Of a stretch of 12,753 bases of DNA, positions 1,382 through 6,826 are shown piece by piece. The stretch is taken from positions 1 through 12,753 of the forward strand of contig JAIEON010000054.1 in NCBI GenBank assembly GCA_019750345.1, given 5' to 3'. The DNA is from Patescibacteria group bacterium (lineage in GTDB: Bacteria; Patescibacteriota; Minisyncoccia; Phycocordibacterales; UBA9973). Position 1 is the first letter of the stretch. Every line of letters starts with the position of its first letter. The notes beneath the pieces were generated by a model, which worked only from the letters and a program-made list of their open reading frames with translations, ran no database searches and was not told where the DNA came from. Made by a program: the position numbers and the translations under genes.

Positions 1382-2491
1382 ATGGCTAGAAAATTAATAA
1401 CCTTTGTTACTCCGAGTACGGGGCAATGGTTGATTATCACAGAATTTGATAAGGAGTTGAAAGCGATATTATATGACCCAGGAAAACCTGAGGATAATAT
1501 TTCAAAAAACATTATCAAGAACAAATACAATGACGACCTTAGACTAGAAAAAACAAGTGAAGTTTCTTCACTAAAAATTCTAGTATGGCCACGAGGTTTA
1601 GGTTTAACCAAACTTCGCTGGACTGAATTTGTCACAGATATCCAATCTGCGAAACTTGAAAAAGTTAAGGACAGAATTACAGGTCTAGAAAGAAAAAAAT
1701 ATACTTCAATCAAAACATTCTTAAACTCCAATTTAGCAATTGGAACAAGAGAAGAATGGGTTCCCTATTTAAACAAAGTTGAAACTCACCCGGCTGTTGT
1801 TGAAATTACATCCAGTGATGGAGGCTCTGTTGAGATGGTAATCAACATCGCACTAGAAATACTTCACCCTCTTTTAATCAAAAATGTTGAAGACATTATC
1901 GCGTATGTTACGAGTTTTGTTGTTGAAGCGTTTCGTCTGTGGGGTGCAAACAAATCCTTTAAGGATTTGAGATCTATCTGCACTACAGATGACAAAACAA
2001 TTCATGATGAAATTTTTGACAAACTTACCCCCCTTAATGAGAAAGATTTCATTGAAAAAGGAGTGTGGGTTAATCGCGTTGCTGTTATGGAAGTTGCTAT
2101 AGCAGAGCGATCAAAAGATCTCTTGGAGAGTGAAGAAAATGTTGCGAAACAAAAAAACAATGCCGCTGCGGCAGTCCATCAGAAAGAAATCGAACTTGAG
2201 CTAAATCAAGCACAAGAAGCTCGTAATGCTTCTGAATTAAAATTCAGAAAAGAAGACGCTGATATCAAGGCAAACTTAATCGAAAAATCTTCTGAAGGGT
2301 TGGCGAAAATTAATAAAGGCTGGGGAAAAGGTGGTCTTAAGAGATTATACATAGGATCAGGTAATACTAATTCTATGCAATCTCTCGTTGAGAGCACATT
2401 GCAAGTACAAGACTTTGCAGACAGTGATACTGACAAACGGAGAAAACCTCAACAAAAAAACAAGAAAGAGGGAGGGTCTGAAAATGTTTAA
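1382..2491 (+). CDS. SPFH/band 7-like coiled-coil protein
   Basis: A 369-residue soluble protein with no signal peptide and no membrane helix. Residues about 135-245 look like an SPFH/band 7 (stomatin/prohibitin) core: a beta segment EMVINIALEI, a helix DIIAYVTSFVVEAFR, then VNRVAVMEVAIAERSKDLLE, where SPFH proteins pass into their helical region. Residues about 240-305 are Ala/Glu/Lys/Gln-rich and should form a coiled coil. The C-terminus is Gly-rich, then basic (KRRKPQQKNKK). SPFH proteins form membrane-associated rings or scaffolds. Most have an N-terminal membrane anchor, which is missing here; the anchor may be the overlapping membrane protein downstream. The ATG lacks a Shine-Dalgarno, but only this start keeps the full N-terminus close to the promoter. 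The family assignment rests on pattern recognition and is moderate. Confidence 0.65.
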   Translation: MARKLITFVTPSTGQWLIITEFDKELKAILYDPGKPEDNISKNIIKNKYNDDLRLEKTSEVSSLKILVWPRGLGLTKLRWTEFVTDIQSAKLEKVKDRITGLERKKYTSIKTFLNSNLAIGTREEWVPYLNKVETHPAVVEITSSDGGSVEMVINIALEILHPLLIKNVEDIIAYVTSFVVEAFRLWGANKSFKDLRSICTTDDKTIHDEIFDKLTPLNEKDFIEKGVWVNRVAVMEVAIAERSKDLLESEENVAKQKNNAAAAVHQKEIELELNQAQEARNASELKFRKEDADIKANLIEKSSEGLAKINKGWGKGGLKRLYIGSGNTNSMQSLVESTLQVQDFADSDTDKRRKPQQKNKKEGGSENV

Positions 2492-3173
2492 AGACAGCGG
2501 ACCTGTGTTATGGATATTATTATTCATAGCAATTCTTTGTATTGTAGGATTTGGATGGCTTTGGATCTACCTGGGTTGGTATATGACTATCGCACTAGTA
2601 GTGATAGGCCTGTTATATCTGTTGTTTTTCTTTAGACAACATATCCCGTTTTCTTCATTAAGATCTATTCGCATCGGTAGTGGTCTATGGTACGCACTCG
2701 GTACAATTATTGTTATATATGCGGCAGTGTTCATCTGGAACCTCTTTGCCGTATCAATCAATCGTTGGCCGTGGGATATTGACCCTGCGTCAGTTCCCCG
2801 CTCTCGTATTTCACTTCGTTCTACTATTAATGACAGTGAACAAGCACGAGTGCGAAAGAACTCAACTCCTACAGACACACGCATTCCTCTCGAAATGAAT
2901 ACGTACCAATTGTTAAAAGCTGGTACTAAGTATCGTTGGGAAAGAGCATGTCTGACTGAATATTATTTCAGAATCAAAGAAGTGGGTCGTGTCGGACTCG
3001 CGTATCAGTTTGATGATAATAGTACTCTGCACTACAAAGGTACTATGATCAAAGATACCGAGGATGCTCGATTTGTTCCTGATCAAGGAGAAGAAGAACC
3101 TTTTGTTGCTGGTACCTACACGGTAACAGTCGACAAAGATGCACTGGTAAAGTTTATCGCTATAAAAAAATAG
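2484..3173 (+). CDS. Three-helix membrane protein paired with the SPFH-like gene
   Basis: A 229-residue protein. Three hydrophobic helices lie at about residues 7-29, 32-50 and 68-91, followed by a ~135-residue soluble C-terminal domain that is probably beta-rich (for example YRWERACLTEYYFRI and FVAGTYTVTV). The ATG at 2484 was chosen because GGGAGGG lies eight bases upstream, a rare clear Shine-Dalgarno here. It also removes an unlikely 32-residue extension that overlaps the previous gene. It overlaps the SPFH-like gene by eight bases, so the two are probably translationally coupled and act together at the membrane. SPFH genes are often paired with NfeD membrane proteins. I see no definite NfeD/OB-fold signature here, so the parallel is only suggestive. 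No known family recognised. Confidence 0.8.
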   Translation: MFKDSGPVLWILLFIAILCIVGFGWLWIYLGWYMTIALVVIGLLYLLFFFRQHIPFSSLRSIRIGSGLWYALGTIIVIYAAVFIWNLFAVSINRWPWDIDPASVPRSRISLRSTINDSEQARVRKNSTPTDTRIPLEMNTYQLLKAGTKYRWERACLTEYYFRIKEVGRVGLAYQFDDNSTLHYKGTMIKDTEDARFVPDQGEEEPFVAGTYTVTVDKDALVKFIAIKK

Positions 3174-3190
3174 CACGGTACTCAAAAACC

Positions 3191-3225
3191 AAAAGACCTT
3201 TCGCAATTTTCGAAAGGTCTTTTTT
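3191..3225. terminator. Bidirectional terminator between convergent operons
   Basis: aaaagacctttcg (3191-3203) pairs with cgaaaggtctttt (3211-3223) around a short loop. A's to the left and T's to 3225 allow it to terminate both the + SPFH-like unit and the - pilin unit. A 7-base outer inverted repeat (acggtac at 3175-3181, gtaccgt at 3228-3234) extends the dyad and touches the stop codon of the minus-strand gene. Confidence 0.92.
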
Positions 3226-3233
3226 ACGTACCG

Positions 3234-3581
3234 TTATGGTAACTTCAATTCTTGAAGCGGTTGAGGTTTGAATGTCTGTTCGTTGTTGTTTATCTTGACT
3301 CCTTGTATACCAAAGGTAGACATAAGAAGTGTAATAAGTCCAAACACCGTAAGCATTATCAAGAGACCAATAACACCCCAGAGCATATGCTGTTTGCCGT
3401 CGCGTCGTTTTTCTTCGTTATCAGCACCACGGATAAACTCCATGACACCAAAAAGGAAGACACCGATTGCGATAACAAAAGACATTTCAATCAATGGGTT
3501 CAAAACAACTTTGTTTATTTTGAACAACAATGTATCGAGACTGTCAGCGTACGCAATACTGTTAAACAGTAGGTCGTACAT
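3234..3581 (-). CDS. T4SS pilin-like two-helix membrane protein (D)
   Basis: A 115-residue protein, the last gene of the minus-strand surface operon. After a short N-terminus come NPLIE and helix 1 (about 29-50), a charged loop RGADNEEKRRDGKQ (51-64), helix 2 (about 68-92) and a short polar tail ending in a KPQPLQ region. This helix-charged loop-helix layout is shared with the three genes upstream and with the C-terminus of the large protein. It resembles the VirB2/TrbC-like T4SS pilin family of Patescibacteria. The ATG at 3581 lies one base after the upstream stop (TAATATG). A TTG at 3590 would add three residues and overlap the upstream gene by eight bases. Unlike its paralogues it has no long signal peptide. 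A structural pilin or membrane subunit is likely; direct function is unproven. Confidence 0.8.
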   Translation of the reverse strand: MYDLLFNSIAYADSLDTLLFKINKVVLNPLIEMSFVIAIGVFLFGVMEFIRGADNEEKRRDGKQHMLWGVIGLLIMLTVFGLITLLMSTFGIQGVKINNNEQTFKPQPLQELKLP

Positions 3582-3582
3582 A

Positions 3583-3984
3583 TTATCCAACGCGACAAGT
3601 ACCAGTACCGCGGTCGTACGTCATACCAGGAGGACAAGTAACAGCAGGAGTTTGTTTAACGTTTTCTGTGTCTACGCCAATAACATCACCAGCGATACGG
3701 ATAAGTCCCCACACAGCAACAGCAACAAAGAGTCCGATGATACCATTGATCATAGTTTTTTTCTTAACTTCTGATTCCTTTGGATCTTTTTCAGCAATAA
3801 AGCGGAATACTGAAATAAGGAAGAACAACATCATTGCGATCATCAACACTGTGATAGACAAGCGGAGCCAGTACAATGCTTGGTTGAGCCAGTTGTTAAC
3901 GTATGTAAAGTTTTGTGCAAGCGCTACCATAGGGATAGCAGAGAGTACAGGAAGGGTTAAAGCAAAGAGTGCAGATTTTTTCAT
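3583..3984 (-). CDS. T4SS pilin-like protein (C) with Cys-bounded C-terminal loop
   Basis: A 133-residue protein. It has a signal peptide at 1-23 (KK start, cleavage ALA|Q), helix 1 at about 38-63, a charged loop EKDPKESEVKKK, and helix 2 at about 80-103. The short tail contains CPPGMTYDRGTGTC (117-130), whose two cysteines may close a disulfide loop outside the cell. The layout matches the neighbouring pilin-like genes. The start at 3984 was chosen because MKKSALF opens a standard signal peptide. A GTG at 4065 would add 27 residues of poor signal character, although it overlaps the upstream stop by one base (TAGTG). No Shine-Dalgarno is evident. If 3984 is right, the 80-bp gap upstream is the largest inside this operon. 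Confidence 0.82.
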   Translation of the reverse strand: MKKSALFALTLPVLSAIPMVALAQNFTYVNNWLNQALYWLRLSITVLMIAMMLFFLISVFRFIAEKDPKESEVKKKTMINGIIGLFVAVAVWGLIRIAGDVIGVDTENVKQTPAVTCPPGMTYDRGTGTCRVG

Positions 3985-4042
3985 ATTGATAGAGTAATCG
4001 AATAAGTAATCACCTGGTACGAATACAGGTATATATAGTATA

Positions 4043-4058
4043 GCATCTTCAGAGATGC
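4043..4058 (-). other. Small hairpin in the intra-operon gap
   Basis: gcatct (4043-4048), loop tcag, agatgc (4053-4058) forms a 6-bp stem in the 80-base gap (3985-4064) between two pilin-like genes. On the minus strand it is followed by a TATACTATATATA tract that could hold a -10 element. There is no T-tract, so it is not a terminator. A processing or stability element or an internal promoter region are the options. Confidence 0.3.
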
Positions 4059-4064
4059 AAGCCA

Positions 4065-4664
4065 CTATTTAGAAGCACTTGCAGGGTTGAGATATTCTTG
4101 TGTCTGCAAGAACGGTACCGAAGCCTTAATACCAAGCGTACCACTTAATATCGTGATAATTCCCCAGACACCAACCATTACAAACAATGCGATTATCCCC
4201 CAGCCCATACGCTGCTTGGCTTCTTCTTTTTGAGTGTTTTCTGCGCTACGCATAAACTGTAATACATTCCACAAGAAGAACAGAAATGCCGCAGCAAAGA
4301 TAAGAGGAATAAGTACAGAAGTGATAATGCACTTGACCCAAATCAATATGTCGAGCAGTGATTTAAATTTGATAGCAGAACATTCTTTGAGCACCTCTGA
4401 ACCTGACTGAGGAGCTCCGGGGTTACCTGCAGTACCAAGAGCACCAGACCCTCCAAGCGCATTGGTCCCCTGGGTCCCACTATTCACTTGCCCCTCAACG
4501 GTACTGGCATAGACAGCAGAACATTCTGCAGTATTTTCTGGGGTATACGTACTACAACATGATGCATAGTTTGCTGAGGTAACAGGACTACAGAATTGCG
4601 CCTCAACAGGTGTGGTTACAACTAGTCCAAGAGTGAGAATGATCGAAAGAAAAAATGTTTTCAT
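4065..4664 (-). CDS. T4SS pilin-like protein (B) with Cys-rich N-terminal region
   Basis: A 199-residue protein. It has a signal peptide at 1-22 (cleavage VEA|Q), then a Cys-rich segment (C25, C36, C37, C48, C95). A Gly/Ser/Asn/Ala-rich flexible stretch (about 59-88) precedes helix 1 (about 107-137, containing C112). The loop is MRSAENTQKEEAKQRM, followed by helix 2 (about 153-178, containing WGIIALFVMVGVWG) and a short tail. The two-helix unit is the same as in the neighbouring pilin-like genes. The extra extracytoplasmic Cys-rich head with its low-complexity linker is specific to this paralogue and suggests a disulfide-stabilised exposed part. The ATG at 4664 lies ten bases after the upstream stop, with no Shine-Dalgarno. 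A surface appendage subunit is inferred. Confidence 0.85.
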   Translation of the reverse strand: MKTFFLSIILTLGLVVTTPVEAQFCSPVTSANYASCCSTYTPENTAECSAVYASTVEGQVNSGTQGTNALGGSGALGTAGNPGAPQSGSEVLKECSAIKFKSLLDILIWVKCIITSVLIPLIFAAAFLFFLWNVLQFMRSAENTQKEEAKQRMGWGIIALFVMVGVWGIITILSGTLGIKASVPFLQTQEYLNPASASK

Positions 4665-4674
4665 AATATAACTA

Positions 4675-5121
4675 CTAACTGGTAAGAGAGTTCACTGTTC
4701 CAATAATCGCGTTCGTAATAGTCCATGCTCCAAGAATCAATAGTGTACCAATTACGGTATAGAAAAATGTCGCTCGTGCTTTGGTAATTTTTTCTGGATT
4801 ACCTCGAGCAAGAATAAATGACAACCCTGACCACAGGAAGAATACAACAATAATGGGAATTGCTATTCGAACAATCGCATTTACAAATAATTTGATCGCG
4901 TCTTGAATAGTGTTTACCTTTAAGGGGTTACTGAATTTAATTCCAATACCAAATTCACCACCCTTACATGGCGCACCTCCTGCATTTGCAGTACAAGGAG
5001 CAGCCTTAGCATCTTGGGCGTGAACTACTAAGATAGTAGAAGTATTCATAGGAGTTAGTGCAAGCATAAATACACAAGAGCTTACTATGAGTAGTTTTGT
5101 AATACCGTTAAATAATTTCAT
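4675..5121 (-). CDS. T4SS pilin-like protein (A), closest to the family pattern
   Basis: A 148-residue protein. It has a long signal peptide at 1-35 (cleavage VHA|Q), a short segment with two cysteines (C43, C52), then FSNPLKVNTIQDAIK, helix 1 (about 82-104), the loop ARGNPEKITKAR, and helix 2 (about 120-143, LGAWTITNAIIGTV). NPL..NTIQ....FVN before helix 1 and GNPEKI.KAR between the helices are the pattern I associate with Patescibacterial T4SS pilins, related in layout to VirB2/TrbC. The ATG at 5121 was chosen because it begins the signal peptide; an upstream start at 5172 would add 17 residues and overlap the large gene. The gap to the upstream gene is 16 bases. Probably the major or archetypal pilin of the set; this is inferred from pattern only. 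Confidence 0.88.
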   Translation of the reverse strand: MKLFNGITKLLIVSSCVFMLALTPMNTSTILVVHAQDAKAAPCTANAGGAPCKGGEFGIGIKFSNPLKVNTIQDAIKLFVNAIVRIAIPIIVVFFLWSGLSFILARGNPEKITKARATFFYTVIGTLLILGAWTITNAIIGTVNSLTS

Positions 5122-5137
5122 ATCTCTAGTATACAGT

Positions 5138-6826
5138 TTAATCGAAAAATAATAAGCCATCAGCGTACCCAAGACTGGTAAGGATCGTGCGCACGATCAA
5201 CCAGGCTGTAAGTATGATCACTACACCAAGGAACATGTGCCACAACATTTTCTTAAATTTAAGATGCATAGCAGGATTTCCTTGCGAAGTAAGATACTTG
5301 AAACCGATATACATAATCATAATGACAAAAATAGGTATCAAGAGAACAGTGATGACAAATTTCAATACGTTATTGAGTAGTTTGAAAACATCATCGAAAC
5401 CACACTTATCAGTACAGGGCACGAGTGCCCCCTTGGCTACATCATCAGCAATTTCTTCTGCGTCAACTTTAAAACATGAAGGATCTGGAGCTTCACCATT
5501 TGGACCACCATAATAATCAATTCTTCCATCACCATCGTCATCTAGACCGTTTGTACAAGTAGTACCAAGTTTTGCAGTTGGTCCAGTACTCGTTGCACGA
5601 GGAACCCCTTCAACGATCGATGGAGAATTTGGCGCTGGTGCCGGTGCTGGCTGGGTTATGTCAGCAGGTGCAGGTTCTTTTACGGTTGTACCGTCGAGTG
5701 TCTTAAAAGTACCCAACTCAGCAATTGTACTGTTTGTTCCTGTGCTATTTTGTTTTACTACTGAAACTGCGTACGTAGAATTGTTATTGAGATTTTCAAA
5801 CGTCAGTTTTTTTGCAACATCTTTAGAGAAGTTCATTATTCCTCCTCCTACCAGAGCACTCCCTCCTACCAATGTTGCCACCACTTGTGCCGAGGGTTCG
5901 TTCGCATCAGCTACCACTTCAAATGTTACAGTTGAAACTTTTGTAGAACCCTTTTGAACCACTGAAACCTGTGGCTTTTGTTTGTATGAAAATTTCGTCG
6001 TTACTCCTGTAATATATGTTTGCCCAGGTGTAGTAAACGAAGGAAGTGTGGCAACAAGAGACTCTGTAGTAGAACCTGGGTTAATACTAAAAACTTTCAC
6101 GGCATACGTAGTGTTCCATTGAAGGTTTTGAAAAGGTGTGTTTACGATTTCATTTTCATCTTCATACTTATAAATACTATCAATTTGATAGGTTTTACTT
6201 GCGTTATTTGGAGCAATGATTCTTACAAACAAGTCTCGCGCGTCCATAGTACTTTTAAAATACAGTCGCACCGCAGGCGTCTTTGAAAGCTCTTCTCCAC
6301 TATAAAATTGCTCAGGTTGCTTAGCATATGAAAGAAATTGAGTCTCTGAAGGATTATCCCCTGCAGGAGAAGTAAAATATCCTATATCAGTATCAAGTTT
6401 TCTTAAAGTATATCCATCACTTCCTAGCTCAGCTAAAGATGCATTGATCGTATAATTTCTTGAGGGAACAAGATTAGTAAAACTTACAGTGGCGTTACCA
6501 TCTCTTGGAATTTCTACACTTTGTTTAGAAGATCCTCCTACGCTAATATCAATATAAACACGAGTAGAACCAGGTGCGGTCCATCCAGTACCACCTAGAC
6601 TTGTTGCCATAAGCTTAAAAGTAACAGAAGATATTTTTTTGTCCCCTACTGTAGCGATACTAACCGTTGGCTTTTCCATAAAACCAAATCGTGGATCAGT
6701 TAGTTTTCCTGCGGCTGAAGAATACCTTATTACTACAAACACAAGCAAAAGAACTGTTATACCTAAATAAGCCAGGCCGTGCCGTGTCTTATTAATTACT
6801 TGTCTGAAAGTCTCTTGCTGCTTCAT
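5138..6826 (-). CDS. Fn3-like repeat protein with C-terminal T4SS pilin-like domain
   Basis: A 562-residue protein. Order of parts: basic N-terminus; membrane helix (about 18-35); Fn3-like beta repeat 1 (about 49-152); a second beta domain (about 165-275); repeat 3 (about 278-377); a Pro/Ala linker (about 384-404); a Cys-bounded loop C424-C451 holding TNGLDDDGDGRIDYYGG, a DxDxDG-type calcium site; two cysteines in CTDKC (471, 475); then a two-helix unit (about 483-512 and 528-550) with loop TSQGNPAMHLKFKK. Repeats 1 and 3 are related: FMEKPTVSI, VSSVTF-type and NYTINASL-type segments recur. The last part matches the small pilin-like genes downstream. I infer an adhesin-like or tip subunit anchored through a pilin-type hairpin. 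The ATG at 6826 overlaps the upstream gene by 35 bases; a GTG at 6856 would add ten residues. Confidence 0.85.
   Translation of the reverse strand: MKQQETFRQVINKTRHGLAYLGITVLLLVFVVIRYSSAAGKLTDPRFGFMEKPTVSIATVGDKKISSVTFKLMATSLGGTGWTAPGSTRVYIDISVGGSSKQSVEIPRDGNATVSFTNLVPSRNYTINASLAELGSDGYTLRKLDTDIGYFTSPAGDNPSETQFLSYAKQPEQFYSGEELSKTPAVRLYFKSTMDARDLFVRIIAPNNASKTYQIDSIYKYEDENEIVNTPFQNLQWNTTYAVKVFSINPGSTTESLVATLPSFTTPGQTYITGVTTKFSYKQKPQVSVVQKGSTKVSTVTFEVVADANEPSAQVVATLVGGSALVGGGIMNFSKDVAKKLTFENLNNNSTYAVSVVKQNSTGTNSTIAELGTFKTLDGTTVKEPAPADITQPAPAPAPNSPSIVEGVPRATSTGPTAKLGTTCTNGLDDDGDGRIDYYGGPNGEAPDPSCFKVDAEEIADDVAKGALVPCTDKCGFDDVFKLLNNVLKFVITVLLIPIFVIMIMYIGFKYLTSQGNPAMHLKFKKMLWHMFLGVVIILTAWLIVRTILTSLGYADGLLFFD

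Follow-up and report, generated by a model that had tools for sequence, protein, structure and literature searches.

A VirB2-like pilin carrying a variable Ig/Fn3 stalk at the head of a patescibacterial pilin operon

By what means do Patescibacteria select a partner cell and keep hold of it, and what is the function of the type IV secretion system (T4SS) pilins that are widespread among them? Both open questions are touched by a 562-residue protein, here called P1, which is encoded in a 12,753-nucleotide stretch of DNA (contig JAIEON010000054.1, assembly GCA_019750345.1; hereafter the window) from a tiny, probably host-dependent patescibacterium. P1 carries a stalk of Ig/Fn3-type domains ahead of a two-helix pilin hairpin and heads an operon of small pilins, and in related genomes the hairpin and the operon are retained and the stalk changes repeatedly. 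We suggest that P1 is a display pilin, that is, a VirB2-like T4SS pilin with an exchangeable Ig/Fn3 stalk, a reading to which we give an even chance of being right.

Domain make-up of P1 and the family of its hairpin

The original prediction, made from the nucleotide letters and their translated frames, had placed a 562-residue frame at positions 5138..6826 without stating its strand. The frame stands and lies on the minus strand, with an ATG at 6826 and a stop codon ending at 5138; the start codon falls inside the upstream gene for a solute-binding protein, with an overlap of 35 bases, and in the alignment of homologues the first residues of P1 are common to P0002 and P0003. The three predicted beta domains, the first and third of them related, were recovered in single-pair BLASTP comparisons (domain 1 with 3, E 3.7e-9; 2 with 3, E 2.5e-6; 1 with 2, E 0.19), and their predicted Ig/Fn3 fold agrees both with a Pfam fn3 (PF00041) match of 34.3 bits against a cut-off of 25 and with the best Foldseek matches of the P1 model, which are tandem Fn3 structures. 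The Pro/Ala linker and the Cys-flanked acidic loop were likewise found as predicted (Table 1). Independent support comes from the homologue P0002, which is encoded on a different contig, has the same layout and is 78% identical to P1 over the whole length (hairpin 90%, domain 1 78%, domain 2 91%, domain 3 70%, linker 46%).

A Cys loop of the type seen at residues 424-451 is present in 19 of 26 homologues (P0002-P0027; P0028, a partial match, was excluded). We take the DxDxDG at 429-437 to be of the kind known from calcium loops, and by this motif the loop is a candidate for calcium binding; the best PDB sequence match of the segment was not significant (E 0.54), and the acidic double-disulfide repeat NF033662 reached 21.8 bits on P1, below its cut-off of 41. 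A similar Cys loop (residues 422-451) also occurs at three loci from Myxococcota, Pacearchaeota and Pseudomonadota (L013, L014 and L015), and this module is thus more widely spread than the pilins themselves; of a set of eight loci, these three match outside the hairpin region only and by that match are not pilins. The aromatic C-terminal end (LLFFD/E and variants) is kept in the closest relatives of P1.

The C-terminal hairpin belongs to the T4SS_pilin family (PF18895), which matches residues 480-548 with 37.0 bits (cut-off 26.6). The model places two helices here (block pLDDT ~62-75 across 481-550), and hydrophobic 19-residue windows start at 487 and 531, in keeping with a two-helix membrane unit. 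The profile of the Mbov_0395 pilin-like conjugal protein, NF045849, scored 21.2 bits on P1, below its cut-off of 40. P1 heads an array of five pilin genes, and all five T4SS_pilin matches found in the genome (a 467-kb draft, 82% complete) sit in it. Other T4SS parts are present in the same genome, off the contig of the array: a VirB4-like ATPase on contig C57 (P-loop_TraG, 91.3 bits) and PrgI on contig C103 (38.6 bits).

That P1 ends in the same unit as the small pilins beside it, as the original prediction held, was borne out for P2, P4 and P5 by Pfam (Table 1) and for the second pilin by a comparison of profiles (six first pilins against six second pilins, 96.8% probability, E 2.4e-10). It was not borne out for P3, whose match falls under the cut-off (E 7.8e-5), nor for the fifth pilin at the profile level (six first pilins against six fifth pilins, 5.6% probability, not significant). 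Apart from these two exceptions, the points on which that prediction had staked its reading, the grouping of the hairpin with the small pilins and the Ig/Fn3 fold of the beta regions, both came out in its favour.

Changes of the stalk across the order

With a profile built from nine homologues, matches were obtained in 93 of the 100 genomes searched in the window's order, P1's own included, many of them confined to the hairpin. The genomes are drafts, one for each species, and their genes were called by a simple script; 92 of the 93 matched loci were examined (G064 was left out), some on fetched pieces that stop at contig ends. A pilin is the gene directly after the solute-binding protein in 81 of the 92, counting two (G079 and G086) where it lies 392 and 410 bases away; of the other loci, six lack a binding protein within the fetched piece, and in five it is present with no pilin called adjacent. 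Upstream of the binding protein, a methyltransferase gene directly precedes it in 76 of the 81, and gyrA also lies within five genes in 69.

The 81 first pilins fall into two classes. In 51 of them, termed bare, the hairpin begins at residue 31-70; in the other 30, the stalked ones, it begins at residue 99-648, and no start lies in between. What the stalked proteins have in addition follows the N-terminal segment and precedes the hairpin. A pair of cysteines immediately ahead of the hairpin is found in 62, among both bare and stalked proteins. The stalked form accounts for 7 of 12 first pilins in the window's genus, for 19 of 41 elsewhere in its family and for 4 of 28 outside that family; further along the arrays, stalks occur at position 2 in 17 of 74 pilins, at position 3 in 15 of 68, at position 4 in 2 of 63 and at position 5 in 1 of 52. 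A BLAST grouping joins all 81 hairpins into one component and divides the 30 stalks into 15 groups at E 1e-4, among which a remote Ig-type kinship is possible. A Pfam scan covered 20 of the 30 stalked first pilins (P1 is one of the 30 and not of the 20). The T4SS_pilin cut-off was reached by 15 of these 20, and a stalk domain over its cut-off (fn3, Pur_ac_phosph_N or TIG) was found in 6; Pur_ac_phosph_N is an Fn3-like fold and TIG an Ig-like one. Pilins with a long extension after rather than before the hairpin were also seen, in G044 (L092), G056 (L101) and G081 (L120).

Close relatives can differ sharply in this slot. Within the window's genus the first pilin ranges from 127 to 562 residues in 12 genomes, with GyrA 79-93% identical among the ten that have it on the piece; the genus, as grouped by the tool used, contains the record JAGOVD010000032.1 (Candidatus Paceibacterota bacterium Gw_Eff_bin_539), whose locus is identical to that of G011. 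In pairs of relatives, first pilins of 324 and 137 residues accompany GyrA proteins that are 96% identical (G048 and G056), with similar cases at 93% (272 and 135 residues, G008 and G009) and 90% (157 and 442 residues, G031 and G058). Over their last 152 residues, which begin at the Cys loop, G010 and P0017 are 78% identical; this part is preceded by 37 residues in G010 and by 268 in P0017. A GyrA tree, made by a quick method from the 66 of 81 loci with a complete GyrA frame in range (one overlong frame, G042, being trimmed to its last 820 residues), cannot be explained with fewer than 15 switches of state, bare or stalked, of which 8 are forced by starred branches. Shuffled labels gave 20.2 changes on average, and the trait is thus somewhat clustered yet very changeable.

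Such turnover of the stalk on a stable hairpin and operon is what would be expected of a part that tracks changing partners, and since the slot is empty or holds other domains in relatives, the stalk of P1 is a good candidate for contact with a partner cell. A display pilin is not the only protein that might carry such a stalk. The hairpin may have been borrowed from a pilin gene simply as an anchor, which would make P1 a surface adhesin with its stalk on the cell and no filament; an abundant subunit with a large stalk would be expected to crowd a helical pilus, and the array's contig differs from that of the VirB4-like gene, both of which favour an anchor. However, the hairpin can still be aligned with those of the bare first pilins that occupy this operon slot elsewhere, and a bare pilin fills the slot in 51 of the 81 loci, so the slot has a job without a stalk. 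On this evidence we regard an anchor without a filament as rather unlikely, if worth keeping in mind. Less credible still is that the stalk serves as a spacer through the wall or surface layer, in an envelope-crossing channel component that replaces parts which monoderm systems lack and that binds no partner. The disordered-looking linker and repeated Ig-like domains of the model might suit such a role, but the range of 127 to 562 residues lies within one genus, whose members should share a wall thickness, and 15 groups of stalks exceed what a spacer would need; we consider this improbable.

The linked binding protein and the wider phylum

The solute-binding protein that precedes P1 is of a sugar type by its Pfam family, and the PDB relatives of a nine-row profile include 5ci5 and 4r9f. 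The usual partner of such binding proteins is a permease of the family PF00528. This family was missing from 53 of 60 genomes searched, including 39 of the 44 with a completeness of 90% or more, and was not found in the draft genome of P1 (82% complete); it was present in 14 of 14 control genomes. The binding protein is therefore mostly an orphan, without its usual permease.

Further searches in a sample of 145 genomes from the phylum gave a T4SS_pilin match in 141 at E 0.001 (138 over the cut-off) and a binding-protein match in 113. For the latter the analysis covered 110 loci, of which 108 yielded a frame, 30 of them with flanks of only ~1.5 kb; a pilin lies directly downstream of the binding protein in 60 of the 108 and within three genes in 63. 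Outside the window's order, binding proteins were linked to pilins in 59 of 82 cases scoring at least 165 bits and in 1 of 23 below, a split picked after the list had been seen, and a subfamily of the binding protein seems to be tied to pilins. By the same measure of hairpin start, 18 of the 60 phylum first pilins are stalked. The stalked architecture, for which the original prediction had proposed a search in other Patescibacteria, thus occurs in 30 of 81 loci of the order and extends beyond it. Two other observations were made in this sample: many of its loci (L143-L169) have a frame of ~280-300 residues just upstream of the binding protein, and, among the matches listed, T4SS_pilin also occurs in open frames of 3312, 1588 and 1243 residues (G171:C1, G105:C86 and G121:C1).

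A capture pilus is a further reading, though a very improbable one: the orphan binding protein would then work with the pilin array as a single machine for the uptake of sugars, other solutes or partner DNA, with the stalk docking or aiming it. It would fit that the first pilin adjoins the binding protein in 81 of 92 loci of the order, that 63 of 108 phylum loci have a pilin no more than three genes away and that the permease is mostly missing, but no ligand is known and the divergence of the binding protein co-varies with that of the hairpin no more than the divergence of the methyltransferase does (partial r 0.23 and 0.29). A wider form of the display-pilin reading, which we put forward tentatively and would sooner expect to fail than to hold, is that the first VirB2-like pilin of this conserved operon has become an exchangeable receptor slot in Patescibacteria. 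The hairpin and the orphan sugar-type binding protein would be kept widely in the phylum and the stalk gained, lost or replaced ahead of the hairpin, setting which partner cell the secretion pilus holds.

Proposed display outside the cell and comparison with known systems

How P1 might be displayed depends on its N-terminus. The original prediction saw a membrane helix there and, with membrane segments at both ends, a stalk held as a tethered loop. The hydrophobic segment is present at residues 1-39; a permanent helix is doubtful. Of the 81 first pilins, 65 have a peptidase-like site behind the hydrophobic stretch, as do 30 of 78 binding proteins taken as a control, with 26.5 expected after shuffling, and in a motif test a site ending in A|Q was found in 16 first pilins and in none of the binding proteins. 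With an earlier peptidase pattern, the first pilins (63 of 81) and the binding proteins (54 of 78) were not told apart. To judge from these sites, a cleaved signal peptide is the likelier nature of the P1 N-terminus, which makes the tethered loop unlikely. Pilins of this kind are known from the F-pilus to expose their termini on the filament, and both ends of mature P1 would probably lie outside.

We propose that the stalk was inserted between the signal peptide and the membrane hairpin of a pilin. P1 would be exported by the Sec pathway and its signal peptide then removed, leaving the hairpin lodged in the membrane with both ends outside. From there the hairpin could co-assemble as a minor subunit with the small pilins of the same operon, so that the stalk would be left outside or at the tip, where it may bind the surface of a partner; the Cys loop and the linker might act as a stiffened joint, perhaps dependent on calcium. 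Lineages would gain, lose or swap the stalk as hairpin and operon stay. Attachment to a host by the stalk of P1 is plausible on this scheme.

Several points weigh against the proposal. No pilus has been seen for these pilins, and no partner host or ligand of P1 is known. The array lies on a contig other than those of the VirB4-like and PrgI genes, in an assembly split into 113 contigs. On P1 the TrbC/VirB2 family (PF04956) scored 20.4 bits, under its cut-off of 27.9. Among the 20 stalked first pilins scanned, 5 miss the T4SS_pilin cut-off (20.3-26.1 bits) and 14 have no stalk domain over a Pfam cut-off. Domain 2 is conserved like the hairpin between P1 and P0002, and fast evolution is therefore not uniform along the stalk. 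Finally, 38 of the 81 arrays have, in the unbroken run of called pilins from the first, some of these runs being short, none with a hairpin start at or beyond residue 95, so the stalk is not needed for the machine.

A slot with changing Ig/Fn3 stalks is a concrete and testable candidate for the recognition of partners, and one that shows in the sequences of genomes from uncultured organisms; the linked orphan binding protein gives another starting point for finding out what this machine does. The features of the locus are collected in Table 1. The window holds 7 terminator-like sites, with 4.3 expected by shuffling, and the stem behind P5 is the longest. Behind the array, at 1382-3173 on the plus strand, lies a convergent gene pair, which encodes a 369-residue protein with no Pfam match and a second protein that has three hydrophobic stretches; some other arrays are followed by called relatives of one gene or of both.

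Table 1. Features of P1 and of its neighbours, in positions of the window
Feature	Position	Strand	Basis
P1, stalked pilin, 562 aa	5138..6826	-	Pfam; homologues P0002-P0027
Residues 1-39, N-terminal hydrophobic segment, probably a cleaved signal peptide with site near SSA|A (inferred without a signal-peptide predictor)	6710..6826	-	
Residues 43-156, Fn3-like domain 1	6359..6700	-	Pfam fn3, best stretch 68-128; model strands 46-152, block pLDDT ~70-88
Residues 160-270, beta domain 2, poorly modelled (block pLDDT ~42-62)	6017..6349	-	Pairwise BLASTP to domain 3
Residues 275-380, Fn3-like domain 3	5687..6004	-	Pairwise BLASTP to domain 1; block pLDDT ~69-84
Residues 381-421, Pro/Ala-rich linker	5564..5686	-	Model: low confidence, without regular structure
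Residues 424-451 (C424-C451), Cys-flanked DxDxDGxxD loop, candidate calcium site	5474..5557	-	
Residues 469-475, VPCTDKC, Cys pair preceding the hairpin	5402..5422	-	
Residues 477-551, T4SS_pilin two-helix hairpin	5174..5398	-	PF18895; model helices 477-513 and 518-551
Residues 556-562, DGLLFFD, conserved C-terminal end	5141..5161	-	Identical in P1 and its three closest homologues
Sugar-type solute-binding protein, 436 aa	6792..8102	-	PF13416, 70.2 bits
P2, small T4SS pilin (start possibly 5121)	4675..5160	-	PF18895, 41.4 bits
P3, small T4SS pilin	4065..4664	-	PF18895, 23.1 bits, below cut-off (26.6)
P4, small T4SS pilin (start probably the internal MKKSALF)	3583..4065	-	PF18895, 34.7 bits
P5, small T4SS pilin	3234..3590	-	PF18895, 29.3 bits
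13-pair terminator-like stem just 3' of P5, presumed operon end	3191..3223	-	

Pilin arrays of Patescibacteria have already been published, and no description of stalked pilins was found in the literature searched. Neither these nor the linked binding protein appeared in titles or the beginnings of abstracts, a search whose scope excluded most subscription journals and bioRxiv. The published arrays hold 2-11 diverse VirB2-like pilins of PF18895, the family to which the array of P1 also belongs, and lie near virB4 in 1,135 of 1,948 assemblies having both (PMC12102498). The passages of that report on these arrays describe no pilins with large ectodomains such as the stalk of P1; they state that an adhesin such as PrgB was not detected, with mention of the protein's small size, and the term 'solute-binding' is absent from its main text. 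In Southlakia epibionticum, a T4SS and a series of pilins are essential for epibiotic growth (PMC10633639). That organism is like the source of P1 in having several pilins in series in a patescibacterium; the array of P1 differs in lying on a contig other than that of the VirB4-like gene, and stalks go unmentioned in the relevant part of the S. epibionticum report. The role of the T4SS in Saccharibacteria has been called completely unknown in one account (PMC11665869, in the part concerned).

Adhesins of the PrgB type, treated in a text part of which also speculates on a conduit pilus, resemble the proposed P1 in being surface proteins that join cells for a monoderm T4SS, and differ in having an LPxTG wall anchor and a polymer adhesin domain where P1 has a pilin hairpin as its anchor (PMC12857230). 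P1 gave no match to the polymer adhesin family in Pfam up to E 1, and its C-terminus is LLFFD rather than LPxTG.

FimH, PilY1 and CagL are tip adhesins of other pili, which carry a binding domain on the filament. By comparison with these proteins as they are commonly described, P1 has its adhesin-like part fused to a VirB2-like hairpin. Fn3 domains are reported in large surface proteins of another epibiont (PMC13059738, in part). In cultures with methanogens, T4SS pilins and Ig-like proteins are both highly expressed in parasitic Patescibacteria and, in the part of that report concerned, appear under different gene numbers (PMC10936435).
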